Shown: piece by piece, positions 13,141 through 36,216 of the stretch
Layout of the letters: each line of letters begins with the position of its first letter
How positions within the stretch are numbered: position 1 is the first letter of the stretch
Translations under genes and position numbers: made by a program
Assembly (NCBI RefSeq): GCF_001261715.1
Contig: NZ_CVRU01000004.1
Span: 1-38,037, forward strand
Length of the DNA: 38,037 bases
DNA from: Dysgonomonas sp. HGC4
GTDB lineage: Bacteria > Bacteroidota > Bacteroidia > Bacteroidales > Dysgonomonadaceae
Reading direction: 5' to 3'
Notes under the pieces: generated by a model
Database searches by the model: none
Told to the model about the DNA's origin: nothing
The model's input: only the letters and a program-made list of their open reading frames with translations

Positions 13141-13185
13141 GTTGTGCTTACTCTTACTAAAGCAACTAATGAGGTCATAGACCTG
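13141..13185 (-). repeat. Dispersed stem-loop repeat, copy A (reverse)
   Basis: The palindrome AGGTC-ata-GACCT is at 13172–13184, nine bases before the methyltransferase ATG. Read on the minus strand it continues CTCATTAGTTGCTTTAGTAAG, which resembles the conserved tail TTTTTATTGCTTTAG of the best copies. Confidence 0.7.
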
Positions 13186-13193
13186 CCTTACTT

Positions 13194-14093
13194 ATGATGA
13201 ATACAATACACATAGATTCATGCCCCGTCTGCGCCAACAACAATTGTCCGGAGACTCTTATTTGTAAAGATCATTTAGTAACAAATGAACAGTTCTCAAT
13301 ACATCAATGTACTAAATGTAATTTCGCCTTTACCCAAAACTTCCCTTGCGAAGAGAAAATTGGTAAGTACTATGATGCTCCCGAATACATCTCTCATTCC
13401 GACACTCATCAAGGATTCATAAATTCACTATATCATCAAGCCAGAAAAATATCTTTGAAGTCAAAAACAAAGATGGCTTCGAAATACTCATCCGATCAAG
13501 CCGAAACACTACTTGATATAGGTTCGGGAACAGGTTACTTTTTGAATGCTATGCGCCTTAAAAAATGGGTTGTAACTGGCATAGAAAAATCGGAAACAAC
13601 AAGGAATTATGCCCACACAAAATTCGGGCTTAATATCCAAGATTCTGACTACTTGTTTCAAATGCCCGACAAGATAAAAGATGTGGTGACTATGTGGCAC
13701 GTACTCGAACACATAGAAAAACTAAATGATACAATGGCAAACCTGCATCGGATATTAAAGGATGATGGTGTTCTGTTCATTGCACTACCCAACAAAAAAT
13801 CGGCTGATGCCATTTCATACAAACAGCATTGGGCAGCATATGATGTACCTCGCCACTTGTGGCACTTTTCGCCCAATGATTTTAGACAATTTGCGGAAAA
13901 GCATAATTTTAAGGTCGAAAAGATGAAACCAATGTATTTTGATCCTTTTTATATAGCAATGCTAAGCGAAAAAAGTAAAGGAACATCCGCGGCGAGTTTA
14001 GTAGGATTAATTAAAGGATCTCTATTCTTCATTCAAAGTCTATTCAGTACCCGCAGATGTAGTTCCATTATCTACATACTTAAAAAGAAATAA
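13194..14093 (+). CDS. SAM-dependent methyltransferase with N-terminal zinc ribbon
   Basis: This is a class I methyltransferase, probably acting on a sugar or lipid-linked glycan. A zinc-ribbon-like segment comes first (C10-P-V-C13 and C39-T-K-C42). SAM-binding motif I follows at residues 106–114 (LLDIGSGTG), then the acidic end of strand 2 (GIEKS) and the motif VVTMWHVLEHI, which is typical of Methyltransf_11/23-type enzymes. The sequence after it (LKDDGVLFIALPNKKS … YDVPRHLWHFSP) matches enzymes commonly found in O-antigen or capsule clusters. Two adjacent ATGs (13194, 13197) could be used. It heads an operon with YfhO, GT2 and others, 86 bases before YfhO, which supports a glycan role. The acceptor is unknown. 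Confidence 0.87.
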   Translation: MMNTIHIDSCPVCANNNCPETLICKDHLVTNEQFSIHQCTKCNFAFTQNFPCEEKIGKYYDAPEYISHSDTHQGFINSLYHQARKISLKSKTKMASKYSSDQAETLLDIGSGTGYFLNAMRLKKWVVTGIEKSETTRNYAHTKFGLNIQDSDYLFQMPDKIKDVVTMWHVLEHIEKLNDTMANLHRILKDDGVLFIALPNKKSADAISYKQHWAAYDVPRHLWHFSPNDFRQFAEKHNFKVEKMKPMYFDPFYIAMLSEKSKGTSAASLVGLIKGSLFFIQSLFSTRRCSSIIYILKKK

Positions 14094-14179
14094 GTATAGC
14101 TCATTACAAATAAAGCATATATCAATAAATATACTTTCATTCACCAATAAAGTCTGACACGTTTAAATACATACACAAT

Positions 14180-16708
14180 ATGATACAAGAGGAAAAATCA
14201 ATACCTAAGAAATTACTCCAACACGTTATAGCTATTGTTTGCTTTTTAGCTGTTACATTTATATACTTCAGCCCTGTTTTGGATGGCAAAGTCCTTCAAC
14301 AAAGCGATGTTCAACAATACAAAGGAATGTCGCGCGAATTGGCTCAATATTACGAAAAAGAAGGTCAATCGTCAGCATGGACAGGTTCCATGTTTTCGGG
14401 AATGCCTGCTTACCAAATCGGAATATGGGGAGGAGCGCCTAACTTTCTGGATTATTTAGAAGCACCTCTAAAGGCTTTGGGAAACAGCACTGCCGGACCT
14501 GTATTTGCTGGAATGCTAATGGCTTATATTCTATTTTGTGTCATGGGTGTAGGTTTCTTTCCTGCAGTATTGGGAGCAATTGCCTATTCTTTATCCTCTT
14601 ACAATATTATAATTATCGATGCCGGGCACGTAACTAAAGCTTGGGCAATAGCCTATATACCGCTTATTGCAGCAGGCTTGGCGGCAGCCTTTAGGCGAAA
14701 GTATCTGCTGGCGGGACTGCTTATGGCTCTTGGTCTGGCACTACAAATCAAGAACAACCACTTGCAGGTTACCTATTATACCGGAATATTGTGCACATTT
14801 ATATATGTAGGACTACTTATAAACGAAGCTCTAAAAAAGAATTTCTCTGGATTACTAAGAGCAACCGGAGCTTTGGCTATTGGTGTTGTTATTGCAATAT
14901 TCTGTAATCTGGGCAATATATACGCTAATTACGAGATGTCGAAAGAAAGTACTCGTGGACACTCGGAATTAACTCAACCAACTCAATCGGAAAAACAGTC
15001 ATCGGGTCTCGATAAAGATTATGCATTTGCATGGAGTTACGGAAAAATGGAAACTTTATCACTTTTGATTCCTGATATACATGGAGGTGCTTCGGGTGGA
15101 ATGTTATCTCCATCCTCTAACCTATATAAAGCAATCAGAACAAATGCTCCGCAAGCGCAAGTTGATTCTGCAGGAATACAAGCTCAGACTTACTGGGGCG
15201 ATCAACCCTTTACCTCTGGTCCTGTTTACTTTGGTGCTATCATTTGTTTCTTATTTGTATTAGGAATGCTTATTGTTAGACATCCCATGAAATGGGTTTT
15301 CCTTGTGGCAACTATTTTCTTCATATTCCTTTCGTGGGGAAATAATTTTGAGATGTTCAATGACTGGTTCTTCTACCACTTCCCTATGTATAATAAATTC
15401 AGGGCTGTATCCACAGCTTTAATTATACCTGCACTTACTATGCTGATAGTAGCAATGTGGGGTATAAAAGAGTTTTTCAGCGGCGAAATCAAAGAAGACA
15501 GTCTTAAAAGATCTATTTATATATCTGCCGGAATTACCGGTGGAATAAGCTTGCTACTCTGGTTAGTACCGGGTATATTCGGATTCGACTTTACCACCGC
15601 CGGCGATAGTCAGTGGATGTCTCAAGTTCCCGATTGGTATTATTCTGCACTTGTTGCAGATCGTAAAGACTTATTATCTTCGGATGCCCTACGTTCATTG
15701 ATCTACATAATTTTAGCTGCCGGAATATTATATGCTACCCTGAAACTAAAAGGAGATAAAAACAAGATTACAGTGTATTGTTCGGCTGTATTAATACTTT
15801 TGGTAGTTATCGATTTATGGGGTGTAGACAAACGCTATTTAAACAACGATAAGTTCCAAAGCAAATTATCGTACGATGCAAATCGTCCATTCCCCCAAAC
15901 GGAAGCCGACAAAGCAATACTTCAAGATAAACACCCATCGTATCGTGTACTGAACTTGAACAATCCGTTTAACGAAACTAAGACATCTTACTATCATAAG
16001 TCAATAGGAGGATACCATGCCGCTAAATTGAAGCGTTATCAGGAATTGATAGATTATCGTTTGCAAGGTGAAATTAATTCAATAATCAAATCATTCGATT
16101 CTCAGAATATAGATAGTATAATTGGTTCTCTTCAAAAGAATACAGCATTAAATATGCTTAATGCCAAATATATTATATTCCACCCCGAACAAGCTCCTTT
16201 ACAAAACCCATACGCAATGGGTAATGCTTGGTTTGTAGACAACTACATTTTTGCTGATAATGCCGATAAAGAGATTGAAGCATTAAACACGCTCGATGTA
16301 GGTTCTACCGCTGTAGTAGACAAACGATTTGAGGATCAACTATCAGGCTTCACTATTGTTCCCGATTCAACAGCAACAATTGAGCTAACCGAATACAAGC
16401 CGAATGCTCTTAAGTACAAATCATCAGCAAAAAGCGAGCAATTGGCAATCTTATCAGAGATGTATTATCCAAACGGATGGGAAGCCTATATAGATGGTAA
16501 ACCTGCTACACACTTCTGTGCCGATTGGACATTGCGCGCCATACGTATTCCGGCAGGTGAGCACGAGATAGAGTTCAAATTCGAACCTCATTCATATAAT
16601 ACTGCACGTGCCATCGCTTCTGCGAGTAGTGGTATTTTGATACTTTTGCTTATTGGAAGTATAGGCTCTCTCTTTTACAGAAAAAAAGATAAGTATACTA
16701 AAATATGA
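14180..16708 (+). CDS. YfhO-family polytopic membrane protein
   Basis: This large inner-membrane protein resembles the GT-C-type glycosyltransferase YfhO. Related Gram-positive YfhO proteins help glycosylate lipoteichoic acid, but the Bacteroidetes substrate is unknown. One TM helix near residues 15–32 is followed by a periplasmic loop (SPVLDGKVLQQSDVQQYKGMSRELAQYY), where an acidic residue would be expected at the catalytic site. About a dozen further helices continue to residue 545. The C-terminal part (about 550–810) is a soluble beta-rich domain with SEMYYPNGWEAYIDGKPA, a YfhO hallmark, and a final TM helix closes the protein. Its stop overlaps the next gene's start (ATGA at 16705), so it is translationally coupled to the GT2 enzyme, which may supply its lipid-linked sugar donor. 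Confidence 0.88.
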   Translation: MIQEEKSIPKKLLQHVIAIVCFLAVTFIYFSPVLDGKVLQQSDVQQYKGMSRELAQYYEKEGQSSAWTGSMFSGMPAYQIGIWGGAPNFLDYLEAPLKALGNSTAGPVFAGMLMAYILFCVMGVGFFPAVLGAIAYSLSSYNIIIIDAGHVTKAWAIAYIPLIAAGLAAAFRRKYLLAGLLMALGLALQIKNNHLQVTYYTGILCTFIYVGLLINEALKKNFSGLLRATGALAIGVVIAIFCNLGNIYANYEMSKESTRGHSELTQPTQSEKQSSGLDKDYAFAWSYGKMETLSLLIPDIHGGASGGMLSPSSNLYKAIRTNAPQAQVDSAGIQAQTYWGDQPFTSGPVYFGAIICFLFVLGMLIVRHPMKWVFLVATIFFIFLSWGNNFEMFNDWFFYHFPMYNKFRAVSTALIIPALTMLIVAMWGIKEFFSGEIKEDSLKRSIYISAGITGGISLLLWLVPGIFGFDFTTAGDSQWMSQVPDWYYSALVADRKDLLSSDALRSLIYIILAAGILYATLKLKGDKNKITVYCSAVLILLVVIDLWGVDKRYLNNDKFQSKLSYDANRPFPQTEADKAILQDKHPSYRVLNLNNPFNETKTSYYHKSIGGYHAAKLKRYQELIDYRLQGEINSIIKSFDSQNIDSIIGSLQKNTALNMLNAKYIIFHPEQAPLQNPYAMGNAWFVDNYIFADNADKEIEALNTLDVGSTAVVDKRFEDQLSGFTIVPDSTATIELTEYKPNALKYKSSAKSEQLAILSEMYYPNGWEAYIDGKPATHFCADWTLRAIRIPAGEHEIEFKFEPHSYNTARAIASASSGILILLLIGSIGSLFYRKKDKYTKI

Positions 16709-17610
16709 GATTCTCATTCATAACCTGCACATATAATCGGGATAAATATATTGCTCAAACACTCAAAGCCGTTTGTGAACAAACATATAACCCTCTCGAT
16801 TACGAAATCATTGTTGTAGACAATAATAGTACAGATTCTACGGCAACGATATGTGAAGAGTTTAAACAAAAATATTTGGATCGTCAATTCCTATACTTCA
16901 AAGAAATGAATCAAGGGCTTTCTTTTGCTCTCAATAGAGGAATAAAGGAGGCTCGGGGAGAATTTCTCATTTTTGTAGATGACGATGAGACTATCATCCC
17001 CGAACATTTAGAGCGACTAAACAATCATCTGAACAATTATCCGGATGCTGTTCTTGCAGGCTCTCCTGTTGTTCCTATCTACGAAGAAGCACAACCTAAA
17101 TGGATGTCGCATTTCACCCAACGATTGATAGGAGGGTATTTCGATCAAGGAAAGCTTCCCAAAAAATTGGATGCGAAAAATTATCCGGGAACAGGGCATA
17201 CAATTGCGAAAAAAGAACTTTATGAAAAGTATGGTTATTACAATACTGAACTCGGACGCAAGGGCAACTCACTAATAGGTGCCGAAGACAAGGACATGTT
17301 CAACCGCTTGAAGAAAAATAATATTGAATGTTATTATTTTCCGGACATTCCTATCTATCACCACATTCCAAAAGAAAAACTGACCGATCAGTTTTTCGAT
17401 AAGCTCACCTACTCCATTGGTAGAAGCGAGCGTATACGTACCTTATCCATCTCCAAAAAAGAATATAGACGAAGACTTTTTGATGAATGTATCAAATGGG
17501 TAGCTTCTTTGGTTTTATACATAGGATATATTATTACATTCTCACCTCAAAAAGGCACACAGTTATTACTATTCAGGTGGAATGTTACTAAAGGCTTACT
17601 TGGTAAATAA
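16705..17610 (+). CDS. Glycosyltransferase family 2
   Basis: This GT-A-fold enzyme transfers sugar from a nucleotide donor. It opens with RFSFITCTYNRDKYIAQTL, then EIIVVDNNSTDST, the GT2 nucleotide-binding strand. The metal-binding motif is FVDDDE (Asp92–94). A later GAEDKDMFNRL (ED box) provides the acceptor-side catalytic residues. A C-terminal hydrophobic stretch (WVASLVLYIGYIITFS) suggests membrane association. It overlaps YfhO by four bases. The stop codon's last two bases form the first two bases of a dispersed-repeat palindrome (17609–17622). The sugar and acceptor are unknown. Confidence 0.92.
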   Translation: MRFSFITCTYNRDKYIAQTLKAVCEQTYNPLDYEIIVVDNNSTDSTATICEEFKQKYLDRQFLYFKEMNQGLSFALNRGIKEARGEFLIFVDDDETIIPEHLERLNNHLNNYPDAVLAGSPVVPIYEEAQPKWMSHFTQRLIGGYFDQGKLPKKLDAKNYPGTGHTIAKKELYEKYGYYNTELGRKGNSLIGAEDKDMFNRLKKNNIECYYFPDIPIYHHIPKEKLTDQFFDKLTYSIGRSERIRTLSISKKEYRRRLFDECIKWVASLVLYIGYIITFSPQKGTQLLLFRWNVTKGLLGK

Positions 17611-17622
17611 GGTCTAAGACCT
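17609..17622 (+). repeat. Dispersed repeat palindrome, copy B
   Basis: AAGGTCTAAGACCT abuts the GT2 stop codon and ends 16 bases before the next ATG. Only the first palindrome is clear. The tail is not obvious on either side, and upstream it would lie inside GT2. Confidence 0.65.
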
Positions 17623-17638
17623 AAAAACTACATGATTT

Positions 17639-18214: not shown

Positions 18215-18230
18215 GATTCTAAAACCTCAG

Positions 18231-19172: not shown

Positions 19173-19175
19173 TTA

Positions 19176-19826: not shown

Positions 19827-20033
19827 TATCAATAGCTAAATAGATGTTTTACAAAAATAGGAAAAGTCTCCAAATATACCCTCACCAATTTAATCTAAAG
19901 TGAAAGTGATATTTATAAAACGTCGGAACAAACTTCAATAAGACATTTAAAAACAGTGTTTTACAACACATAAGAATTCTATTTAATTAGAAACATGTAA
20001 ACCATTTGACACAATGTATTTCTAAAAATAGTT

Positions 20034-20048
20034 AAGGTTCTAAACCTT
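20034..20048 (+). repeat. Degenerate dispersed repeat palindrome, copy K
   Basis: AAGGTTCTAAACCTT keeps the outer arms AAGGTT/AACCTT of the repeat. The conserved tail is not recognisable, so this may be a decayed copy or chance. Confidence 0.4.
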
Positions 20049-20158
20049 TTGTTTAATTGTCAAAAACACTCAACGAGTATCTGTCTATTTATCAATAGAT
20101 TAAATTGATTTCTATTTTTAACAGTCTGTTAAATACATGAAAACAAACCACTTTGTAC

Positions 20159-20190
20159 TTGCTATTAACAAAATAATTATGTTATCTTTG
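20159..20190 (+). promoter_or_regulatory. Promoter of ndk
   Basis: The -7 box TATCTTTG (20183–20190) matches TAnnTTTG. A TTG (20159–20161) lies 21 bases upstream, consistent with the Bacteroidetes -33 element. The start would be near 20197, about 50 bases before the ndk ATG. Confidence 0.75.
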
Positions 20191-21780: not shown

Positions 21781-21782
21781 CA

Positions 21783-21790: not shown

Positions 21791-21830
21791 TATAGAGTAA
21801 TTCAAGGTAAATATCTAACTCTACATTAAT

Positions 21831-21888
21831 AGTTGTAACTAACTGTTGATTTTATATTTACAAAAGCAATAAAAAAGGTTTGAGACCT
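21831..21888 (-). repeat. Dispersed stem-loop repeat, copy C (reverse)
   Basis: The palindrome AAGGTTTGAGACCT (21875–21888) ends 19 bases before the DUF1599 ATG. Read on the minus strand it continues TTTTTTATTGCTTTTG and then an imperfect second stem (CTTTTG … CAACAG, five of six pairs). On the plus (transcribed) strand the inner palindrome mismatch becomes a T-G wobble. Confidence 0.75.
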
Positions 21889-21907
21889 GAAAAAAGAATT
21901 TCAGATA

Positions 21908-22485: not shown

Positions 22486-23802
22486 ATGGGAAAAACAAAA
22501 AACATTATATTAAAAATAGTTGTCGAAATTTCGCGCATCTTGCTCGGGATTACATTTATTTTTTCGGGTTTTGTAAAAGCCATAGATCCACTCGGAACAA
22601 CTTATAAAATACAAGACTACCTTACATCATTTGGCTTGGTAAGTTTGCATGATTTAGCATTACCAATGTCAATTATTTTATGTGCAGGCGAGTTTTGCGT
22701 TGGTATATTTATACTCTTCGGGCTTTACAGAAAATGGACGTCTCGTCTTTTGTTCCTTGTGATGCTTTTTATGACTCCACTTACATTGTATCTGGCAATA
22801 GCCAACCCCGTACAAGATTGCGGATGTTTTGGCGACGCACTTATAATAACCAATTGGCAAACTTTCTTTAAAAATATCGTTCTATTAGCTTGTTCGATAG
22901 TTGTACTTATTTGGCATCAAAAAATAACAAACCTATTTACTGGAAAATTTTACTGGTTTGTAGGCCTTTACATTGTTGTATGTAGTATTGCGTTCTGTAT
23001 TTATAGTATCAAACATGAACCTATTATAGATTTTAGACCTTACAAAGTAGGTGCTAACATACCTCAACTCATGACCGTAGAAGAAGACAAAGCTCCTGTA
23101 TTTGAGAATATCTTCATTTACGAAAAAGATGGTGTTAAGCAAGAATTTACAGAAGACAATTATCCCTGGGAAGATTCTACATGGGTGTTTGTAGACCGAC
23201 AAAGCAAACTGATAAAAGCTGGAGAAGAACCTCTGATTCGAGATTTTTCTATTAACCGCCTATACCTTACTCAAGATAAGACTGCGATAGAAGCAGAGGA
23301 AGATATAACCTCTGAAGTTTTGAGCGACAGCAGCTATACATTTTTGATGATAGCCTATTCTTTGACTGATATGAATCAAGATTATCTAAGCTCATTTGAG
23401 GATGTTAATAATTACGCCCGCGATCATCAGTACAAGTTTTATTGCTTGACCTCATCACCTCGTGATGTTATTCTGCAACTGGAAAAAGAAAATATTACTA
23501 ACTTTGATTTCTGCTTGTCAGATGAACGAAGCTTGAAAACAATTGTACGTTCCAATCCGGGTTTAATTCTGCTAAAGAATGGTGTGATCATAAATAAATG
23601 GTCAGATAGGAAGGTTCCAACCGAGACTCAACTAAGTAAACCGATAGAACAACTTCCTTTTGGCAATATGCCCGATACTAAAAAAGAAAGTGACAGACAT
23701 CTATATATGTTTGCTTTGATATTGTTTACACCATTAGTTGTGATTAAACTATTGGATGCACTTATATATCACAGAAAGAGCGTCACAGAAACAAAAGAAT
23801 AA
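22486..23802 (+). CDS. DoxX/MauE-like membrane protein with thioredoxin-like tail (BT_3928 family)
   Basis: The N-terminal half (to about residue 170) has four or five TM helices with the DoxX/MauE pattern SGFVKAIDPLGTTYKIQDYL and a QDCGCFGDALI motif, typical of MauE-like membrane redox proteins. The second half is a soluble, probably periplasmic domain with a thioredoxin-like layout (SYTFLMIAYSLTDMN … KFYCLTSSP … NPGLILLKNGVIINKW), but it lacks the CXXC pair. It ends with one more TM segment. I place the start at ATG 22486 rather than TTG 22474. It lies in one operon with DUF1599 and probably tpiA. The function is unknown; a role in disulfide or redox transfer is inferred from the MauE-like half. 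Confidence 0.85.
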   Translation: MGKTKNIILKIVVEISRILLGITFIFSGFVKAIDPLGTTYKIQDYLTSFGLVSLHDLALPMSIILCAGEFCVGIFILFGLYRKWTSRLLFLVMLFMTPLTLYLAIANPVQDCGCFGDALIITNWQTFFKNIVLLACSIVVLIWHQKITNLFTGKFYWFVGLYIVVCSIAFCIYSIKHEPIIDFRPYKVGANIPQLMTVEEDKAPVFENIFIYEKDGVKQEFTEDNYPWEDSTWVFVDRQSKLIKAGEEPLIRDFSINRLYLTQDKTAIEAEEDITSEVLSDSSYTFLMIAYSLTDMNQDYLSSFEDVNNYARDHQYKFYCLTSSPRDVILQLEKENITNFDFCLSDERSLKTIVRSNPGLILLKNGVIINKWSDRKVPTETQLSKPIEQLPFGNMPDTKKESDRHLYMFALILFTPLVVIKLLDALIYHRKSVTETKE

Positions 23803-23810
23803 TTAGATAA

Positions 23811-23889
23811 CAGTAAATACTGCTTATCACAAAATAAAATGCTTTGGTTTACACACTTGCCAAAGTAACGAAACAAGGTTTGAAACCTT
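23811..23889 (-). repeat. Dispersed stem-loop repeat, copy D (reverse)
   Basis: The palindrome AAGGTTTGAAACCTT (23875–23889) is perfect, with both arms changed relative to AAGGTCT/AGACCTT. The second stem CTTTGG … CCAAAG is a perfect 6 bp (plus-strand 23841–23865). A small CAGTA-aa-TACTG hairpin (23811–23822) sits where the third stem is expected. It ends 39 bases before the tpiA ATG. Confidence 0.82.
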
Positions 23890-23928
23890 AGAATAGTAAT
23901 TTTTTAAACTAAATAATATCATTTCATT

Positions 23929-24747: not shown

Positions 24748-24779
24748 CAGTTATAAGTAATTTGTCATTAGCGGACTTT

Positions 24780-24850
24780 AAGGTCTCAGACCTTTTTATT
24801 GCTTTGGAAAGAATAAAACCAAAGATTGTTATATTTACAAAATATAACAA
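24780..24850 (+). repeat. Dispersed stem-loop repeat, copy E (best-formed)
   Basis: Three stem-loops follow each other. The palindrome AAGGTCT-C-AGACCTT is at 24780–24794. A perfect 6-bp stem CTTTGG/CCAAAG spans 24802–24824. A perfect 10-bp AT-rich stem pairs 24826–24835 with 24841–24850. The 71-bp unit lies 33 bases after the tpiA terminator and about 100 bases before the SPOR gene. Confidence 0.88.
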
Positions 24851-24949
24851 TAAACACGTTTATCGACTGAGCTAAAATCTCTGAACCAAACTATCTTATG
24901 GATTGTTAAACAATACATAGTTCGGCAATTATTTATATTACAACACATT

Positions 24950-25521: not shown

Positions 25522-26097
25522 ATGTCTTCAATAAATAACGAAGAAAACAACATATCGCTGTTGGCTACTCACTACAAATCGGTTATCGACTTATTAGGTG
25601 AAGATGCTAGCAGAGAGGGTCTACTTGATACTCCAGAAAGAGTAGCTAAAGCTATGACATTCCTAACTAAAGGTTATAACGAAAATCCGGAAGAGATTCT
25701 TAGAAAGGCGCTCTTTAAGGAAGATTATAGCCAAATGGTTATTGTAAAGGATATCGATTTTTATTCATTGTGTGAGCATCATATGCTACCTTTCTGGGGT
25801 AAAGCACATGTTGCCTATATTCCTAACGGATACATTACAGGTTTGAGTAAAATACCTCGTGTAGTAGAAGTCTTTGCAAGACGTTTACAAGTACAAGAGA
25901 GATTAACTACTCAGATTAAAGATTGTATTCAGAAGACTCTTAATCCAATGGGGGTAATGGTGGTTATAGAAGCACAACACATGTGTATGCAAATGCGTGG
26001 TGTTCAAAAACAAAATTCAACAACTACCACTTCAGACTTTACAGGTGTTTTTAATACAGCAAAAACACGTGAAGAATTTATCAACTTGATTAGATAA
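25522..26097 (+). CDS. folE: GTP cyclohydrolase I
   Basis: This enzyme converts GTP to dihydroneopterin triphosphate, the first step of folate synthesis. The zinc ligands are C84 and H87 ([12 protein letters not shown]) and C155 ([10 protein letters not shown]). The nearby [28 protein letters not shown] is the typical type IA signature. N-terminal [20 protein letters not shown] matches the GTP-cyclohydrolase fold. The length of 191 residues is normal. The stop codon's last base is the first base of a degraded repeat copy (F). Confidence 0.98.
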
Positions 26098-26155
26098 AGT
26101 CTAAGACCTTATCTAAAAACTCTGGAAGTGTAAAATTTAGAATTAGTTATAGATT
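26097..26155 (+). repeat. Dispersed stem-loop repeat, copy F (degraded)
   Basis: AAGTCTAAGACCTT (26097–26110) has lost one G of the left arm. It continues with a tail similar to copy E (CTCTGGAAGTGTAAAATTTAGA), in which a 5-bp stem including G-U pairs can still form. It begins at the last base of the folE stop codon. Confidence 0.6.
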
Positions 26156-26183
26156 TCAATCGTTTCATTAAGCACTTACTTTT

Positions 26184-26711
26184 ATGAATAACTATTTCAT
26201 CGTACCTGGACTTGGAAATTCAGGACCAGACCATTGGCAAACTTTCTTTGAAAAGTCGGGAGATAATTTTACACGAATAGAGCAACAAGGTTGGGATGCC
26301 CCGAATTGTCACGAGTGGATAAAAAATATTGATGACGTTGTAAGTAAATACGACCTATCAACAGTAATCCTTATCGGGCATAGCTTAGGCTGTATAACTA
26401 TTGCACATTGGGCGAAACAGTCTGGCAAGAAAATAAAAGGAGCTTTGCTTGTTGCACCAAGTGATATCGAATCTCCATTCTATACATTTACGTCAAGTGG
26501 ATTTACTCCTATATCTTTGGAGAAAATCAACTTTAACACCATTGTTGTTGCAAGCACCAACGACCCTTGGGTATCAATGAAAAGAGTAGAGCTTTTTACC
26601 AAAAGTTGGGGTAGCACACTTATTAATATAGGAGATGCGGGACACATCAATGCTGCATCGGGTTACGGAGAGTGGCAAGAAGGATTGGAGATTCTAAAAA
26701 AGCTTGGTTAA
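26184..26711 (+). CDS. RBBP9/YdeN-family serine hydrolase
   Basis: This small alpha/beta hydrolase has no known physiological substrate. The first strand YFIVPGLGNSGPDHWQ is the RBBP9/YdeN signature. The nucleophile Ser67 lies in IGHSLGC, the acid in ASTNDPWVS, and the His in GDAGHINAASGYG, so the triad is complete. The length of 175 residues is normal for the family. It follows folE by 86 bases with repeat copy F between, and converges on pdxB, whose stop is 32 bases away; no terminator is visible there. Confidence 0.92.
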   Translation: MNNYFIVPGLGNSGPDHWQTFFEKSGDNFTRIEQQGWDAPNCHEWIKNIDDVVSKYDLSTVILIGHSLGCITIAHWAKQSGKKIKGALLVAPSDIESPFYTFTSSGFTPISLEKINFNTIVVASTNDPWVSMKRVELFTKSWGSTLINIGDAGHINAASGYGEWQEGLEILKKLG

Positions 26712-27856: not shown

Positions 27857-27866
27857 TTTTCAAATT

Positions 27867-27942
27867 AAGGTCTTATACCTTTTTATTACTGTGGATAATA
27901 TAATAACCAAGATTCGTTATTATTCAAACTCTTCAATAATTA
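27867..27942 (+). repeat. Dispersed stem-loop repeat, copy G
   Basis: AAGGTCTTATACCTT (27867–27881) has one mismatched pair. It continues TTTATTACTGTGG … AACCAAG (second stem, with a bulge) and a 7-of-8-pair AT-rich third stem reaching 27942, which includes the stop codon of the ABC ATPase gene (27940–27942). It is antisense-oriented relative to pdxB. Confidence 0.75.
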
Positions 27943-28629
27943 TTTACAATATGTATTGAACAAGTCTTTGACCGAAACTACATCACTAGCTTTACCATCA
28001 AAAACTAAACTCCCTTTATTTAAGACCAAGTAACGGCAAGCAATGTTCGACACATCATCAAATCGGTGTGATGAATATAAAACAACTTTTGATTTACCTA
28101 GCTCAACGATGAGCTCCATCATATTGGCTTGTTGATTAGGATCTAATCCATTAGAAGGTTCATCTAAGATAAGAATATCAGGATTATGAATAAGAGCCTG
28201 AGCCAGCCCTACCCGCTGCTTGTTACCGTTGGATAAGGAATGTATCTTTTTTCTATATTCCGATTCAATACTCACAACTTGTATCATCTCATCCACTCGT
28301 TGCTTTACCTCAGTCTTTGGCAAATAAATATGCGCTGCGTACTCAAGGTATTCTTTTACATACATATCTTCATACAGAGGATTGTATTCGGGAAGATAAC
28401 CAATGCCTCGCTTTATTTTTCGGGGATTCTCTTGTATATCTTCACCATTGATAGAGACCTGCCCTTTAGTTGCAGAGATTACTCCTGCAATAATATTCAT
28501 GGTTGTGCTTTTCCCAGCACCATTGGGTCCTAAGAAAGCAGTTATTTCTCCTTTGTTTAAAGTAAAGCTTACATCACGAAGAACTTCATGACTGCCATAG
28601 CTTTTTGATATATTACAAACCTCTATCAC
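27940..28629 (-). CDS. ABC transporter ATP-binding protein (GldA-like)
   Basis: This is the ATPase subunit of an ABC transporter. Walker A is GPNGAGKST (34–42), Walker B is LILDEPSNGLDP (152–163), and the switch His is in YSSHRFDD (His188). The C-loop is LSNGNKQR rather than LSGGQ. The order GYLPEYNPLYEDMYVKEYLEYAAHIY resembles GldA and other single-domain exporter ATPases, but the protein is shorter (229) than GldA (about 300), and no permease genes (gldF/G) lie in the window. It starts nine bases after the TamB stop and is almost certainly co-transcribed with it. The partner permease is unknown. Confidence 0.88.
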   Translation of the reverse strand: MIEVCNISKSYGSHEVLRDVSFTLNKGEITAFLGPNGAGKSTTMNIIAGVISATKGQVSINGEDIQENPRKIKRGIGYLPEYNPLYEDMYVKEYLEYAAHIYLPKTEVKQRVDEMIQVVSIESEYRKKIHSLSNGNKQRVGLAQALIHNPDILILDEPSNGLDPNQQANMMELIVELGKSKVVLYSSHRFDDVSNIACRYLVLNKGSLVFDGKASDVVSVKDLFNTYCK

Positions 28630-28638: not shown

Positions 28639-31600
28639 TTATTTAGTGCTTTCTGTTGTTTCCTTTGCGGGGCGTTTTCTTCGTTTCTTAAATGCTTGGA
28701 AAAGCTCTTTTATCCTCTTTGCCTCTTTGGTATAAACAAGACCTATACCTTGTGTGGTAGCAGCTTGTCTGTAAAGTCTCTCATTAGTCTGATTAAACAC
28801 TTTTACCTTTATGTTCCGGGTAAGAGCATATGCAATATCAAAGTCACCTATAAATGAATTATCAGCTGTCGACTGGTCTGTTCTATAACCAAGGTTACTA
28901 TTAAATTCGAGCTTATCTTCCATAAACTTACGCGATAAACTTACCGTCATATCTACATCCGAGAATGACCCATCGTTTGAAGATATGTTAGCCCCGATAG
29001 CCCATTTATCTCCTAAAGCATTTCCAAGTAAGGCATTTAAACCACTCGAAAGAGCACTTGATGCTATACTGGTAACTAAACCATCAGCCATACTTCCGCT
29101 AACAGAAGACCCATTCTGACTATGGAATGAACCTGTAGCTACTAGAAATGCAAATTGAATAACTTTCTGCTCATTAGTAGCAATTAAACTCCTTACTCGC
29201 TGCTTTTGCTCATCACTAGCATTAGGTAAAGTTATATCGTATGAGAGATCCATCTTATCCATATTTCCCTTAATCATCAACTCGGCATCAACATCTACCC
29301 TTGGCGAATTACTCTGATCGGTATCAAAGCTTGGATCTAATGTTGTAAGATCTGCTCTTACTCTTCTATAAGCAGTTATATCGAAGTTTGTTTTCAAAGG
29401 GTCACCGTTAAACACAAGTTTACTTCCCTCTCTGATTTTGAACTCTAGTGTCTTTATATTCTGTAATCTAAGCCGTACAAAACCATCAGATACCATATAA
29501 TCTCCAAAAGCATTCATGGCTTCGGACTGCATATCATATGAAAAATTAATCAGTCCCGATCCTTTCACTTGCATAGCATCTCCCGTTACTGGATTGATTA
29601 TAACACCCATTTGAAAATCGGGAGTTACCGTCAAATTAACAGACAAACGGAGAGGTAACGGTTTTGGAATCTCGGCTACAATTTGCTGTACAGCGGATTG
29701 CTCCGGCACATTAATATAAACTATACTTTCGAAAACTGATGCTTGCGATGTTTGAGGAATCTGTACATTCAGACTTGAGTTTCGCCCATTTGTGATCTTC
29801 ATTTTCATATCTATCAGATCATCCGATCCTTTGACATTAACCGTTCCACTCGCAAATACTTTTCCATAGAACAAACTATCTGTTCTATTGGCAGTATTTA
29901 AGACTAACAGGTTATTGAGTTTCATGTCTAAGGTATATCGCATATCCTCAAAATTCTTATGCGTCATCAAAGCATTTACAGTTGCTTTGTTTTTATAGCT
30001 ATCTTCAACAATCAGATTATCAAAACCTATCTTGTTTGGTTCTATCTCTATAGTATCCGAAATATGATATGTTACATTAGTATAATCAATCCCCAGATAG
30101 GCATCATTCACCCCTAACCAGCCATGTACAAGAGGAGCAGTAAGACGCCCCGTAACATTCAATCCCGTACTAATGCTACCCGAAGCTCGATTCAACATAT
30201 CAGGAACAAAAGGTTGTATCCAAGCAATATCCAATCGATCTAAGTTTAGTTTCAGATCTAACGAGTCTTGAGTGGGATATACCCAACCCGAGAACTCGCT
30301 TTGTGAACCAACTTTCTCTAATTTAGCTTGAAGACCAATTGCACCCACCTCCTCACTCCAATGACTCTTTACAGACAAATCGCCAAGGGTATCATTAAAT
30401 ATGATAATATTTGACAAAGTGAGGTTATTTGTATAAAGCTCTGGAGTACTTAGCGCATTCATTATTTTTATATTGCCATCGGCTATTGCACTTACATTAC
30501 CTATATCAAATGCCTGAAATATATCACCCAGATGTGCATTAAAGAACGACACGTTCAGCGTATCTGTTTCTTGATCTGAGACAACGCCATCCACACCAAA
30601 GAATCGGCTCAACATCCTGTTGTTCCCAACAGTAAAACCAAAATTAGAAATTGTGGTTCTTGTTCCTTCATTCGTTATTTCGGCTGGCATAAGAGTCATT
30701 TTGAGCTTACCCACATTCAGATCAGTAGGAGACAAACGCACGTAAGAGATCATTTCTCCACTTTCGGATGTCCTTAGGTTTGCCAAAGCTTTTATACTTC
30801 CATCTATATTAATACTTCCACTATCAGTTTTAGCTGTTAAAAATGCATTTATCGAATCCGATTCTATATCAGTATTTAATACAAACTTGACTTTTTCCGA
30901 ACCATTATACAGAACCGTATTACCGTGTAAATTCATCAAGGTGTCGGTATTTGCAATATCTATCCGCGTATTCAGAATACTCAATGCCCCAAATTCAACG
31001 AGAGGCATATCTGCCGTAGCTTTAAATTTGTTTTCTTTGGTATTTATCAAGCCACTTATAATCATTGGCTTTATTATATTCGCAGGGAGATCGAAAGTCT
31101 CTGTCAGATTTTCAGTATTATCTAAAGCCAAACTAAAGTTGAAATCGTTCTGCATACTTCTTTGCCGCTTATATTTTGGCTGAGGAAATATTCCCGGTAA
31201 GTATTGATTCATTATAATTGCAATTTCATCCGACAATGTCATAAAATTGTACTCACCTTCAATGCTTGCATTCAATAAAGATGTGCTCAGTTTTATATAT
31301 TTCTTCGACTCATCTGTCATTCCGGCTTTAAGCTCTATTCTACCCGGTATAAAAGATAAGCTATCACGCGAGAACACAAAATCCTCAACAACTACATCTC
31401 CTTGAATCTTAGCAGGATCCAGTCCTATAATATTGCCTTTCAGATGAAACGACAGCAAAGGGTTTTTCCATTGTAGGCTATCTATAAATCGATCGACTTG
31501 AAGTTTTTCAACGCTCATGTCAACATCAATTGTAGGAATCTTGGCCTGTGTCATATCAGCTTTAGCCTCAAACTTACCAGCAGGAAGATCTGCCTTAATC

Positions 31601-33108
31601 CAAGCTCCCATTTTCGCCGAATTATAATAGGCTGTAAATGGAATGTCGTTATAATTTTGCTTATGATATTGAAGACCATTAACCTGTCCTTTTACATCGG
31701 CACTCAAAGGTTGTCTGGTACTTTGTGATGCATTCAGATTAAGATTCATAGATAAGCGTCCAAATTCGGGATCTGCTAACAATGAGCCCAAATTGAAATT
31801 CTGCGTTTGTAGTCTTGCTCTGACATTGTAATTCTGGAAAGTGGTATCTACTGATCCAGTGGCTAGCATCTGTATAGCCCCTTGTTTAGCCCACGCTTCT
31901 GCTTTTATATTAAGATTGCTTAGTTTTCCTTGGAGATTTCCGTTAAGCCTTATATTTCCAAGAGTTTTCAGCATGTCAGGTGCTACGAAAGTAGAATCGC
32001 CGAGTTTAGCAAAATCAACTATCGCATCAGGAGTAATCAAAAAGCTGGTTATATCGAGACTTAAATCAGCCAAATCGTATCGTTCGTAATTTGATATAGA
32101 ACCGTTTGCTTTTATATTCGTTTCGTCCCCATAATTCAAAAGCAGATTCTCAATATTTACCAATGGTAGTTTTCCTTTTATAGAAGTCTCCAATAGAATA
32201 TCATGTTGAAGATATTTAAGACTAGTCATAAAAGGGACTAAATCCAAAGGAGATAGCTTGGATTGCTCTGTTACAAGAGCGACATCATTAGTCGACAAAT
32301 TATAATGTGCGGAAGGAATTTTAAGCACCGAATTAGGAAGACTCAATGAAGCATCTGCCAAATAATAAGTTGTTTTATCGGAAGTAAGATGTGCCTTTAA
32401 TTCTTTAATCTCCAAACCGGTTTGCTCTTTTAGAGCCAACGATACCAATGTGATATTAAGATTCTCTGGATCTATGGAGGGTAGTTTCAAATTAGCATTC
32501 AGATCCGAGATGCTTATATGTGACGAATTGAATACACCAGGTGTGATTGTATCCGAAAGAATATCATACTTAAGTTTCGCATTCTTAAGGGTAACATCCA
32601 CAATATCTATTATTAAACTTCTCTTTGTTGTATCAACAGGGGTAGTATCACTACTCGAAAATGCATCTATTATAAATTGAAAGTTGAAATCAGACTGAGA
32701 AGTTTGCTGAGACAAGTTAGCCGTAACATCTTCCAACTCGATTTCGTTAATTAATAATTTGTTCCTTAATAAAGACCAAGGGCTTATATGCACATCCAAG
32801 TTTCCGGCATAAATAAGGGTATCCTTTGCCTGATCTTCTACATATACACCTTTAAGGTTTACATGATTGAAAAGTCTTAAACTAACCCCATCTATTCGAA
32901 CCTCCGTTTTTAAAATTGTTCGTAGCTCTCCCAGAGCAAAGTCAACCAATTTACGCTGAACGGCAGGTATAGATAAGACACCGTATAAGATTATAATTAA
33001 CGCAATAAAACTTAGTATTATATAAGTCAAAACCTTAAACGCTTTCTTTATATAATTCTTTTTCCGAAGAGGTTTATTTGTTTCTGTCTCTTTGTGTTCC
33101 TTATCCAT
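28639..33108 (-). CDS. tamB: TamB-family (DUF490) envelope translocation protein
   Basis: This very large periplasm-spanning protein belongs to the AsmA/TamB group that moves phospholipid or assembles outer-membrane proteins. A single N-terminal TM helix (about 27–49, TYIILSFIALIIILYGVLS) anchors it in the inner membrane. About 1200 residues of repeating beta-strand groove follow, and the C-terminal TamB domain (about 1090–1460) ends with GIGLVYTKEAKRIKELF and a Lys/Arg-rich tail. The 1489-residue length is normal for Bacteroidetes. No TamA/TamL gene is next to it. It is followed by the ABC ATPase (9 bases) and preceded by two tandem copies of the repeat (33114–33248). Confidence 0.92.
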   Translation of the reverse strand: MDKEHKETETNKPLRKKNYIKKAFKVLTYIILSFIALIIILYGVLSIPAVQRKLVDFALGELRTILKTEVRIDGVSLRLFNHVNLKGVYVEDQAKDTLIYAGNLDVHISPWSLLRNKLLINEIELEDVTANLSQQTSQSDFNFQFIIDAFSSSDTTPVDTTKRSLIIDIVDVTLKNAKLKYDILSDTITPGVFNSSHISISDLNANLKLPSIDPENLNITLVSLALKEQTGLEIKELKAHLTSDKTTYYLADASLSLPNSVLKIPSAHYNLSTNDVALVTEQSKLSPLDLVPFMTSLKYLQHDILLETSIKGKLPLVNIENLLLNYGDETNIKANGSISNYERYDLADLSLDITSFLITPDAIVDFAKLGDSTFVAPDMLKTLGNIRLNGNLQGKLSNLNIKAEAWAKQGAIQMLATGSVDTTFQNYNVRARLQTQNFNLGSLLADPEFGRLSMNLNLNASQSTRQPLSADVKGQVNGLQYHKQNYNDIPFTAYYNSAKMGAWIKADLPAGKFEAKADMTQAKIPTIDVDMSVEKLQVDRFIDSLQWKNPLLSFHLKGNIIGLDPAKIQGDVVVEDFVFSRDSLSFIPGRIELKAGMTDESKKYIKLSTSLLNASIEGEYNFMTLSDEIAIIMNQYLPGIFPQPKYKRQRSMQNDFNFSLALDNTENLTETFDLPANIIKPMIISGLINTKENKFKATADMPLVEFGALSILNTRIDIANTDTLMNLHGNTVLYNGSEKVKFVLNTDIESDSINAFLTAKTDSGSINIDGSIKALANLRTSESGEMISYVRLSPTDLNVGKLKMTLMPAEITNEGTRTTISNFGFTVGNNRMLSRFFGVDGVVSDQETDTLNVSFFNAHLGDIFQAFDIGNVSAIADGNIKIMNALSTPELYTNNLTLSNIIIFNDTLGDLSVKSHWSEEVGAIGLQAKLEKVGSQSEFSGWVYPTQDSLDLKLNLDRLDIAWIQPFVPDMLNRASGSISTGLNVTGRLTAPLVHGWLGVNDAYLGIDYTNVTYHISDTIEIEPNKIGFDNLIVEDSYKNKATVNALMTHKNFEDMRYTLDMKLNNLLVLNTANRTDSLFYGKVFASGTVNVKGSDDLIDMKMKITNGRNSSLNVQIPQTSQASVFESIVYINVPEQSAVQQIVAEIPKPLPLRLSVNLTVTPDFQMGVIINPVTGDAMQVKGSGLINFSYDMQSEAMNAFGDYMVSDGFVRLRLQNIKTLEFKIREGSKLVFNGDPLKTNFDITAYRRVRADLTTLDPSFDTDQSNSPRVDVDAELMIKGNMDKMDLSYDITLPNASDEQKQRVRSLIATNEQKVIQFAFLVATGSFHSQNGSSVSGSMADGLVTSIASSALSSGLNALLGNALGDKWAIGANISSNDGSFSDVDMTVSLSRKFMEDKLEFNSNLGYRTDQSTADNSFIGDFDIAYALTRNIKVKVFNQTNERLYRQAATTQGIGLVYTKEAKRIKELFQAFKKRRKRPAKETTESTK

Positions 33109-33113
33109 ATTTT

Positions 33114-33165
33114 AAGGTCTTAAACCTATTTTTTCCTTTGTCGAATACTATCCCCAAAGTTTGTT
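33114..33165 (+). repeat. Dispersed stem-loop repeat, copy H1
   Basis: AAGGTCTTAAACCT (33114–33127) starts five bases before the tamB ATG. The second stem CTTTG … CAAAG (33136–33159) is perfect over 5 bp. The mismatched inner pair of the palindrome is C-A on the plus strand but becomes T-G on the minus strand, which is the strand transcribed into tamB. A second copy follows directly. Confidence 0.75.
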
Positions 33166-33248
33166 AAGGTCTCAGACCCATTCAATTACTTTGGTTAGTA
33201 TAAGTACAATTGATAGTTGTGACTAATAACGCTGTAAATACTTACAGC
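33166..33248 (+). repeat. Dispersed stem-loop repeat, copy H2
   Basis: AAGGTCTCAGACC (33166–33178) is followed by CATTCAATTACTTTGG, like the tail of copies E and I. The second stem is weak here. The final hairpin GCTGTAA-atac-TTACAGC (33231–33248) is a perfect 7 bp in the position of the third stem. With H1 it forms a tandem pair. Confidence 0.7.
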
Positions 33249-33270
33249 CGAATAATACCGTAAAACAATT

Positions 33271-33630: not shown

Positions 33631-33730
33631 CTCTTTAGATCTTTAAATTTATTGTCAAATCCAATATTCTCTTTATGGCTTTCAATTGTCCGACAAGCAG
33701 AGCTAAAGCCTTAAAGATAACACAATCACA

Positions 33731-33738
33731 CAAAGTTA
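33731..33738 (-). promoter_or_regulatory. Putative -7 box of the ArsC-like gene
   Basis: TAACTTTG on the minus strand matches TAnnTTTG, about 100 bases before the ATG at 33630. No -33 element is clear. Confidence 0.45.
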
Positions 33739-33912
33739 AATTTTCTTTCTTATTTTCCTTTAAATAGAGGCTAATAAGTATAAGGAAAATTGATCTTTGA
33801 GGTATAAAATGTATCAAAAAGACAGATGAACTTAAATCACTATATCTGGTGATTGTTCCATTCTCTTTATTTGACTACTTTTACTAACGCTTTTAACAAT
33901 CATATTGTTTTG

Positions 33913-33990
33913 AAGGTCTAAGACCTTTTTATTGCTTTAGCTAGTATTATAGCCTAGAATCTTTACAATGACAAATGTCTAGTAAAGATT
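33913..33990 (+). repeat. Dispersed stem-loop repeat, copy I
   Basis: AAGGTCT-A-AGACCTT (33913–33927) is perfect. It continues TTTATTGCTTTAGCTA. The second stem pairs TTTAGCTA with TAGCCTAGAA through small bulges. The third stem pairs AATCTTTAC (33958–33966) with GTAAAGATT (33982–33990), a perfect 9 bp. It ends 32 bases before the PPO ATG. Confidence 0.85.
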
Positions 33991-34022
33991 TAACTTTACA
34001 TAAAGATCAAAGAAACTGTCGA

Positions 34023-35378
34023 ATGAAATACGATGCAATTATAATTGGTGCGGGACTTACCGGACTTAGTACTGCTTTTTATCTGAAAAAAAAAGGACTC
34101 AATATTCTTATCCTCGAAAAAGAAAAGCGTGTGGGAGGAGCTATCCGTTCGCATAACGAAAACGGATTTGTATTTGAAGAAGGACCTAACACAGGAGTAA
34201 TAGGCAACCCTGAAATTGCTGAACTTTTTGAGCTATTGGGCATACAACCCGAGACAGCCAATAGTGATGCCGAGAAACGTTTGATCTTAAAAAATAATAC
34301 TTGGCATCCGTTACCCTCTGGTGCAATTAGCTTTCTGAAAACCCCTTTATTTTCATTCTCAGACAAAATAAAAATAGCTTTTGAGCCCTTCCGAAAGAAA
34401 GGCACTGATCCTGAAGAATCGGTTGCATCACTTGCTTCCAGACGAATTGGTCGGTCTTTTGTAGATTATGCAGTTAACCCCTTCATATCAGGAATATATG
34501 CAGGAGACCCTACTAAGTTGGTTACAAAATATGCTTTACCTAAACTCTATAATTTGGAGCAAAAATATGGAAGTTTCATTGGTGGATCCTATAAAAAGAG
34601 TAAAGAAGTAAAGACCGATAGGGATAAAAAAGCCTCTCGAAAAGTATTCTCCGGACAAGGTGGTTTTAGCTCACTTGTAGAAAAGCTGGTTGAGAAAATT
34701 GGAGAGGAAAACATTATTTGCTCTGCTGAAAAAATACAAATAATACCAAATGGAAATCAATACGAAGTTAGTTTCGTCAAAGAGGGAAATCCAATATCTT
34801 TAACTACAAACAAAGCCATATCAACAGTCGGAGCTCATGCCCTACCCCAGATATTACCTTTTGTAGACAAAGCCGATATGCAAAACATTTCAACTCTTAC
34901 TTATGCCAGAGTTATACAAGTGGCAGTAGGTGTAGATAAAGAAGCCATCGACAATAAATACATTTCATTTGGAGGATTGATCCCTGAAAAAGAAAAACAA
35001 AGAATATTGGGAGTCTTATTCCCCTCTTTTTGTTTTGAGAATCGTGCCCCTGAAGGATACGCCACATTGGCAATCTATATGGGAGGCATCAGAAACCCCG
35101 AAATATTCGATTTAGATGATTCAAATATAGAACAAATCGTAAAAGAGGATTTAGATAGTTTATTTAAAATTCCTACTTCTGCTATTCAATTCATAAAGAT
35201 ATTCCGTCATCCTCATGCTATCCCTCAGTATGAAAAATCGAGTGGCAAAAGATTCGAAACCGTTGAAAAAATAGAGGCGCAGTATCCCGGTTTAGTCATA
35301 GCAGGTAATCTACGGAATGGTATTGGTATAGCCGACAGGGTAAAACAAGCTTATGATATTACCGAAAATATACTCTAA
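34023..35378 (+). CDS. hemG: Protoporphyrinogen oxidase (HemY-type)
   Basis: This FAD enzyme oxidises protoporphyrinogen IX to protoporphyrin IX in haem synthesis. The frame is open to 33975, but I start it at the ATG at 34023, where MKYDAIIIGAGLTGLSTAFYL forms the FAD-binding Rossmann start (GAGLTG at 9–14), followed by ILEKEKRVGGAIRS. The PPO/amine-oxidase pattern continues with FEEGPNTGV, FVDYAVNPFISGIYAGDP, and the C-terminal VIAGNLRNGIGIADRVKQ, the conserved FAD closing motif. At 451 residues the length is typical. The gene is an isolated unit; no other hem gene is in the window. Both hemG and hemY are used as names for this enzyme type. Confidence 0.93.
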   Translation: MKYDAIIIGAGLTGLSTAFYLKKKGLNILILEKEKRVGGAIRSHNENGFVFEEGPNTGVIGNPEIAELFELLGIQPETANSDAEKRLILKNNTWHPLPSGAISFLKTPLFSFSDKIKIAFEPFRKKGTDPEESVASLASRRIGRSFVDYAVNPFISGIYAGDPTKLVTKYALPKLYNLEQKYGSFIGGSYKKSKEVKTDRDKKASRKVFSGQGGFSSLVEKLVEKIGEENIICSAEKIQIIPNGNQYEVSFVKEGNPISLTTNKAISTVGAHALPQILPFVDKADMQNISTLTYARVIQVAVGVDKEAIDNKYISFGGLIPEKEKQRILGVLFPSFCFENRAPEGYATLAIYMGGIRNPEIFDLDDSNIEQIVKEDLDSLFKIPTSAIQFIKIFRHPHAIPQYEKSSGKRFETVEKIEAQYPGLVIAGNLRNGIGIADRVKQAYDITENIL

Positions 35379-35479
35379 TCACTTCCAACTATTTTTGAAT
35401 ATGCAACTTACCTCAACAATAAATTAGGCATATACGCTTAAAAAAAGTTTCACTGAAACATATTTTCATTTTTTCGATA

Positions 35480-35487
35480 TATCTTTG
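35480..35487 (+). promoter_or_regulatory. -7 box of the upp promoter
   Basis: TATCTTTG matches TAnnTTTG, 17 bases before the upp ATG, so the predicted leader is only about 11 bases. Confidence 0.65.
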
Positions 35488-35504
35488 TCGCCAAAATAAG
35501 AAAA

Positions 35505-36161
35505 ATGAAAGTAATAAACTTGTCTGAACAAAACTCGATTCTAAATCGTTTTGTCAGCGAAATTCGAGATGTAAACATCCAACAAGACAGTATGCGTTTT
35601 CGCCGCAACCTAGAGCGTATCGGAGAAATCATTGCTTACGAAATAAGTAAAAACCTGTCTTATGAGACTCTAGAGGTACAAACCCCTCTGGGTAGTGCTC
35701 CGGCTAATTTATATCAAGATAAAATTGTATTGGGTACAATTTTACGTGCCGGACTAGGTTTTCATCACGGATTCCTTAATTATTTCGATAATGCAGAAAA
35801 CTCTTTCGTTTCGGCATATCGTAAATATCGCGAAAATCACGAAAGCTTTCATGTTAGCATAGAATATATTGCTTCTCCTCGTTTGGATGGTAAGGTGCTT
35901 ATACTTACCGATCCGATGCTTGCAACAGGTGGAAGCATGGAACTATCATATCATGCACTTCTTACTAAAGGTTCGCCTAAACATGTACATATAGCAACAG
36001 TTATTGCCAGCCAAGAGGCAATTGATTATTGCAAAGAAAAATTTCCGGATGCAACTACAACTATTTGGGCAGCCGATATCGATCCGTTGCTTAACGAGCA
36101 GGCATACATCGTTCCAGGATTGGGAGATGCAGGAGATTTAGCTTACGGTCAGAAAGATTAA
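35505..36161 (+). CDS. upp: Uracil phosphoribosyltransferase
   Basis: This salvage enzyme makes UMP from uracil and PRPP. The PRPP-binding loop LILTDPMLATGGSM is at about 132–145, and the uracil-binding IVPGLGDAGDLAYG lies at the C-terminus; both are intact. The 218-residue length and the start LSEQNSILNRFVSEIRD fit Bacteroidetes Upp. It has its own promoter. Repeat copy J lies between it and tcdA. Confidence 0.97.
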   Translation: MKVINLSEQNSILNRFVSEIRDVNIQQDSMRFRRNLERIGEIIAYEISKNLSYETLEVQTPLGSAPANLYQDKIVLGTILRAGLGFHHGFLNYFDNAENSFVSAYRKYRENHESFHVSIEYIASPRLDGKVLILTDPMLATGGSMELSYHALLTKGSPKHVHIATVIASQEAIDYCKEKFPDATTTIWAADIDPLLNEQAYIVPGLGDAGDLAYGQKD

Positions 36162-36201
36162 ACTATCAAAAGAAAAATCACTTTCCATCTTTACTACAAT
36201 T

Positions 36202-36216
36202 AAGGTCTCCAGACCT
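36202..36216 (+). repeat. Dispersed repeat palindrome, copy J
   Basis: AAGGTCT-CC-AGACCT is perfect apart from the two-base centre. It lies 35 bases before the tcdA ATG. A tail is not clear on either side. Confidence 0.65.

Follow-up and report, generated by a model that had tools for sequence, protein, structure and literature searches.

A dispersed hairpin-led repeat of about 95 bp in Dysgonomonas, a probable non-autonomous mobile element

Known small repeats and the Dysgonomonas repeat

Bacterial genomes carry several families of small mobile repeats, about 100-200 bp in length and with TA at their ends. The available passages of a 2007 review name Correia/NEMIS, ERIC, RUP and CIR as examples and give a parent insertion sequence for RUP alone (PMC2229807). 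ERIC, also called IRU or RU-1, is an intergenic element of 127 bp with TA ends and a target duplication, and its copy number ranges from 30 to 711 per genome (PMC2229807, PMC10969869). CIR, described from Caulobacter and Brucella, has TA ends and no terminal inverted repeat; its 5' and 3' parts each form stem-loops and it carries a GANTC motif (PMC2229807). RUP of Streptococcus pneumoniae is 107 bp long, intergenic and inserted at TA, and its ends are common to IS630-Spn1 (PMC2229807). A further dispersed repeat of S. pneumoniae, SPRITE, contains a terminator-like hairpin (PMC10969869, PMC3049150), while the GTAG-tagged REPs of REP/RAYT systems are intergenic palindromes whose ends often supply a stop codon (PMC3733652).

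The repeat described here was found in a stretch of 38,037 nucleotides (the window; contig NZ_CVRU01000004.1) from Dysgonomonas sp. HGC4, whose genome (G000) comprises 4.49 Mb in 196 contigs. It fits the ERIC, CIR and RUP kind, without long terminal inverted repeats. The comparison with ERIC concerns general properties (intergenic placement and TA ends), and where ERIC has a terminal inverted repeat of 7 bp, the Dysgonomonas repeat mostly has TAAG. TA ends and the lack of a terminal inverted repeat are shared with CIR, and a similar length, TA insertion and intergenic placement with RUP; unlike RUP, however, the repeat has no visible IS630 partner, as IS630-type DDE_3 (PF13358) was found in none of five Dysgonomonas genomes. 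It differs from SPRITE in that a terminator orientation is not general. Like the GTAG-tagged REPs it has an end able to supply a stop codon, but it lacks the GTAG tag, its unit is longer and no RAYT was found in G000. Compared with a strict MITE, the repeat is likewise too short for a transposase gene, but its terminal inverted repeat does not exceed 5 bp, TA included. The available passages on Porphyromonas repeats make no mention of Dysgonomonas (PMC5771137), and no account of dispersed repeats in this genus emerged from our search of the open-access literature.

Extent, copies and hairpin of the repeat

A preliminary description of the window, made from sequence alone, had listed about eleven intergenic repeats led by the palindrome AAGGTCT-N-AGACCTT. 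With up to three mismatches allowed, this palindrome has 14 matches in the window against 1.60 expected (maximum of 5 in 100 shuffles), a frequency far beyond chance that bears out the first impression. The perfect form is present at 24780 and 33913 only, or at 23875 as well if Y/R is permitted, and the other listed sites are imperfect. Three of the listed starts were shifted by one base and are correctly placed at 13171, 26096 and 36203; the last of these has a two-base spacer, falls outside the 14 matches and was picked up by a terminator scan. Across G000 the perfect form AAGGTYTNARACCTT occurs 76 times and the reversed pattern not at all. Among 60 relatives scanned, four congeners carry it in large numbers (82 in G001, 201 in G002, 22 in G004 and 112 in G005), and the other 56, which include a 62%-complete congener (G003) with none, have 0-5 (0-2 for the reversed control). 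A 28-base pattern was found in 83 stretches of a genome collection that possibly does not cover the window's own genome, all of them from Dysgonomonas save one MAG, Bacteroides sp. UBA939. The palindromes of the window are the leading hairpins of a dispersed repeat that is genus-wide in Dysgonomonas and its close kin.

A profile built from the copies and extended outward gave a unit of 93-97 bp from TA to TA, conserved from TTAAGG through TTACTTA, which replaces the 70-80 bp first proposed. The unit begins with the hairpin AAGGTC-NNN-GACCTT and its consensus can be written as TA-AGGTC(NNN)GACCTTTTTATTGCTTTGG...about 50 bp...TTACT-TA; copies are about 77% alike. In 1.62 Mb from five species the profile had 186 matches at E<1e-2, training copies counted in, against none in the reversed sequences, which gave two at E<1 (best E 0.41). 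The 51 matches in 425.8 kb of G000 correspond to about 12 detectable copies per 100 kb and, by extrapolation, to some 500 copies in the genome. The repeat makes up a notable share of the intergenic DNA of G000 and bears on the annotation of gene ends and operons. A covariance model trained on 45 copies (24778..24872 among them) recovered the family in the genome and its relatives, a search that the preliminary description had suggested, with at least 150 matches each in the four Dysgonomonas genomes G000, G001, G002 and G005 and 69 in G004. Beyond these genomes it had 24 matches in G019, 10 in G023, 5 in G010 and 3 in G029, and none in G003, G014, G015, G042, G052 and G057.

Within the window, eight copies reach E<1e-4 with cmsearch (Table 1) and, as first claimed, full copies occur in both orientations. 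The remaining members of the original list (33114, 20032, 17607 and 36200) score just E 0.1-2.5 and are decayed copies or bare hairpins. Four of the five copies that had been singled out as better ones (23811, 24780, 27867 and 33913) lie within full copies, and the fifth, at 33114, is a truncated copy.

Table 1. Copies, hairpins and an empty site of the repeat in the window
Feature	Position	Strand	E value or score	Remarks
Full copy	13093..13187	-	E 2.6e-6	Orthologous sites empty in G001 and G002
Bare hairpin	17607..17625	+	Model E 2.2	In stop codon of gene 16705-17610
Bare hairpin	20032..20050	+	Model E 0.14	Same place in G001 and G002: stem retained, loop differs
Full copy	21796..21891	-	E 4.5e-9	Immediately upstream of gene at 21908; same-place copies in G001 and G002
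Full copy	23798..23891	-	E 1.4e-6	Upstream of triose-phosphate isomerase gene at 23929 (named by 78.5% match)
Full copy, best in window	24778..24872	+ (hairpin first)	88.5 bits, E 3.2e-15 (cmsearch)	In training set
Decayed copy, among the eight	26094..26190	+	E 2.6e-5	Begins in stop codon of gene 25522-26097; hairpin-like remnants in same stop codon in G001 and G002
Full copy	27865..27957	+	E 7.5e-8	Hairpin beside start codon of minus-strand gene 26744-27856; orthologous site has same-place copy in G002, hairpin with short tail in G001
Interrupted copy	33112..33163	+	E 0.1	Beside start codon of minus-strand gene 28639-33108
Full copy	33164..33256	+	E 6.5e-7	Nested in older copy 33112-33163
Full copy	33911..34004	+	E 1.2e-9	Tail runs into called start of gene at 33975; D. 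alginatilytica carries a copy within same flanks
Empty target site	35396..35420	.	Best fit TA once; identity at junction 0.95	One TA (35409-35410); D. alginatilytica has a full copy here
Bare imperfect hairpin AGGTCTCCAGACCT	36200..36217	+	Model E 2.5	Picked up by terminator scan

The three-stem-loop architecture originally proposed stands for the first hairpin only. In 45 copies, 90% of the cells of hairpin 1 are paired, and 11 cells carry double changes against 2.3 after shuffling, a number equalled in none of 500 shuffles. Ten of the 11 fall on one pair (GC 32, UA 6, CG 4), and the six UA and four CG cells may represent few events within subfamilies; double changes affect two pairs in all, a count matched by 181 of 500 shuffles. 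The stem variants GCTC/GAGC and GTTC/GAAC keep the pairing in high-scoring copies, and we infer from them that movement or function calls for pairing and not for a particular sequence. For the CTTTGG/CCAAAG stem, the overlapping TATAAC/GTTATA stem and the A+T-rich stem, covariation over the same 45 copies was not clearly above shuffles; TATAAC/GTTATA came nearest, its score being equalled in 54 of 500 shuffles. When 143 copies were scanned for mutual information, the top pair fell within hairpin 1, and the other high pairs make no helix. Copy 24778-24872 does fold into three stem-loops (z -3.56), whereas a high-scoring copy from another species gave z -0.56; stems 2 and 3 are well folded in the former and not supported as a general feature of the family.

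Occupied and empty sites

Comparison of orthologous loci, which the preliminary description had named as a check, revealed that occupancy often differs between species. Among 266 orthologous gap pairs of G000, G001 and G002, where one gap or copy may count in up to three species pairs, 162 were empty in both species, 76 were filled in one and 28 were filled in both; the gaps contained 18 pairs of same-place copies, not all of them independent. Both ends were adequately covered for 116 of 187 copies, and for 34 of the 116 an empty site could be aligned. Ten of the 34 junctions had no clear TA and 15 were not clean, so that 25 were unusable; in the nine clean ones the best model of the empty site was TA once in five, no TA in two and TA twice in two. 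The cleanest junction favours TA once with an identity of 0.95, and some of the dissenting junctions reach 0.86-0.88. This cleanest pair belongs to the gap at 35373-35510 of the window, where one TA stands against TA, element and TA in D. alginatilytica. At the copy 13093..13187 the empty counterparts in G001 and G002 also show a single TA by eye, but the scripted scoring of junctions set this pair aside as having unclear ends. TA is found at the left end of 39 of the 45 aligned copies and within the final five bases of 40, while exact inverted ends, TA included, measure 2, 3, 4 and 5 bp in 7, 6, 18 and 4 copies, respectively (35 of 45 scorable). A two-base (TA) target duplication is likely from these alignments, though not settled. 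These natural filled and empty pairs could serve the wider question of what moves small TA-bounded repeats.

The window also holds a nested insertion (33112-33256), in which one copy sits inside an older one; G001 and G002 have the outer copy uninterrupted, without the insert of 33164..33256. With occupancy that differs between species, TA near both ends of the copies and one copy nested in another, the simplest account is a mobile, non-autonomous repeat with TA as its insertion site. We put at roughly 0.8 the probability that the palindromes are the leading ends of such a mobile DNA repeat, about 95 bp long and proper to Dysgonomonas and close kin. The suggestion of a REP/MITE-like non-autonomous element is supported in its broad sense, given the dispersed, intergenic copies in both orientations, the empty orthologous sites and the TA near both ends, and does not hold in the strict sense of either REP/RAYT or MITE. 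Present-day movement is not proved, with copies about 77% alike. In the mechanism that we propose, an enzyme supplied in trans would recognize the hairpin end and the opposite end of the repeat, and the element would insert at TA, leaving TA on either side. The inserted sequence begins with A, and insertion into a TAA or TAG stop codon would leave TAA. After insertion the tail would decay and the hairpin often persist, perhaps as a useful part of mRNA at gene boundaries, which is the least certain step.

Several comparisons bear on this last step. An 18-letter stretch covering hairpin and T-run had 95 intergenic occurrences with up to one mismatch, of which 21 lay outside profile matches; for the next 18-letter stretch of the tail this was so in 0 of 33. 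With two mismatches the figures were 54 of 174 and 2 of 70, and neither stretch had a reversed control. The 15-letter palindrome lay outside profile matches in 45 of 134 intergenic cases. Two far-end stretches were mostly tail-like: one mismatch left 0 of 5 and 0 of 4 outside, two mismatches 4 of 20 and 1 of 14. Two short A+T-rich stretches were less informative; for one, 8 of 19 lay outside, and for the other 8 of 43, a number that the control equalled. Between same-place copies, identity was 0.82 in the stem and 0.81 in the first 20 bases beyond it, against 0.69 in both the loop and the distal tail and 0.82-0.85 in the flanks. When up to two mismatches are allowed, two species have a bare hairpin in the same gap more often than expected, in 9 of the 266 pairs of gaps (p 0.009, odds ratio 3.4); these nine pairs represent seven distinct gaps, and all of their hairpins lie at the same distance from the flanking gene to within one base. 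Together these data suggest, without proving, that the hairpin is sometimes retained after the tail has decayed. At 14088-14185 the window has a broken hairpin, and G001, G002, G004 and G005 keep a tail-less GGTCT/AGACC hairpin at or shortly after the same gene end. A more far-reaching proposal, which we offer tentatively and consider doubtful, is that a repeat without terminal inverted repeats depends for its mobility on an end hairpin that is read by pairing over sequence, that it is moved by an enzyme outside the transposase families covered here, and that its hairpin then persists throughout the genus as an element of the mRNA, located at stop codons and just before start codons.

Placement beside genes and alternative readings

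Gene positions were taken from a simple in-house script and not from a published gene finder. The midpoints of all 187 copies fall outside called genes, in line with the intergenic placement first reported, and 7 of 141 hairpins with up to one mismatch have theirs inside one. The earlier statement that no palindrome lies inside a gene holds except for those at 17609 and 26096, which share two bases with a stop codon, and for the copy 33911-34004, whose tail reaches the start at 33975. Of 85 copies that face a stop, 41 have the hairpin end within the stop codon under strict limits, against 8 of 70 for the tail end; under loose limits the corresponding figures are 47 of 84 and 22 of 70. Stop-codon sites account for 3.5% of the TA sites between genes. 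A null drawn from the TA sites of the gap in question, which took in 125 of the 187 copies, gave 19.8 hairpin-in-stop copies expected against 37 seen. Gaps with such copies have a median length of 32 bp, compared with 231 bp for the remaining gaps, and about half of the stop-codon excess arises because these gaps are short; as the raw excess shrinks to this extent, targeting of stop codons is not claimed. For copies with the hairpin end in a stop codon, 34 comparisons of orthologous proteins were made, several to a copy, and in 33 of them the last residue was the same. The insert therefore occupies the native stop codon, and truncation of genes by the insert was rejected.

Of the alternatives to a mobile repeat, the one that survives best, and which we nevertheless consider unlikely, is that the hairpin and T-run form an intrinsic terminator, mobile or fixed, that ends transcription of the preceding gene in the manner of the pneumococcal SPRITE. 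The terminator scan picks up hairpin and T-run at 24780 and 33912, the hairpin end is at stop codons more often than the tail end under both sets of limits, and 16 of 31 full or partial copies after a stop codon have a T-run downstream only. Among copies before a start codon, however, the T-run is on the upstream side alone in 24 of 29 and so faces away from the gene. In bare hairpins after a stop codon (n = 24), the T-run is downstream in 4, upstream in 8, on both sides in 2 and absent in 10, so that a terminator role of the bare hairpins is unsupported for want of any downstream preference.

The palindrome could also be an operator, in which a regulator would bind GGTCTNAGACC beside the genes of its regulon, as the preliminary description had considered. 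Perfect dyads, the one-third of intergenic palindromes (45 of 134) that stand without the tail, and some excess near start codons (62 copies against 49.3 expected, sd 4.1, among the 125) agree with such a role. The loops are often asymmetric, though (GCA, ACA, TCA), turnover between species is high, many copies lie at gene ends, and stems altered on both sides in some copies, as in the variants GCTC/GAGC and GTTC/GAAC, weaken the case for a fixed binding sequence; we consider an operator very unlikely.

If the repeat is mobile, as we prefer to think, a RAYT (Y1) transposase acting on a REP element would be one way to move it, since a short intergenic palindrome is what such enzymes are associated with. 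Single Y1-transposase-like proteins (PF01797) were found in open frames of three sister species, with 220 aa in G004 (L080), 179 aa in G002 (L081) and 194 aa in G001 (L082). The absence of a RAYT noted for the window extends to the entire G000, however, and Y1 is equally missing from G005 with its 112 perfect palindromes. The three Y1 loci of the sister species (about 3.2 kb each) contain no palindrome, and one of them holds two marginal profile matches (E 0.016 and 0.096). The GTAG tag is absent as well, the consensus ends being TTAAGG and ACTTA, and we give this explanation slightly less credence than the operator. Least credible of all is a structured RNA passed on vertically, as a leader or riboswitch-like family, which copy 24778, folding better than its own shuffles, and the better-kept stems of the 18 same-place pairs would favour, but which is contradicted by the pattern of presence and absence between species. 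The occurrence of both orientations and covariation confined to hairpin 1 also speak against it; an Rfam search of the window returned only a tRNA above the curated score.

The mobile repeat that we favour would call for an enzyme elsewhere in the genome, and the search covered Y1, PF13358, PF01609, PF13359 and PF13586. Apart from the lack of PF13358 noted above, PF01609 was found in one of five genomes, as a fragment where a G002 contig ends, and PF13359 in one of seven, G023 only. PF13586 gave sub-threshold pieces only, in two of seven genomes (G023 and G002, the latter with four of 56 aa each). G000 has no match to any of these four families, and neither has G001, a single contig of 4.3 Mb with at least 150 copies of the repeat. 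Draft assemblies can lose insertion sequences. Among the families covered, no RAYT or other transposase with matching ends, for which the preliminary description had proposed to look, was identified. Candidate end pairs in the 1.62 Mb comprise six whose tail end is unpaired and about twenty others 0.8-3.7 kb apart, and one such interval, checked by eye without a family search, had no obvious transposase.

Another repeat family, GTAGGGG...CCCCTAC, contains inner inverted repeats and resembles the GTAG-tagged REPs; an example is L072:12854-12910 (G2_A 252854), and it occurs in similar places in G000, G001 and G002. The Y1-like proteins of G004, G002 and G001 are putative helpers of this GTAG repeat, one copy of which lies within a copy of the 95-bp repeat.
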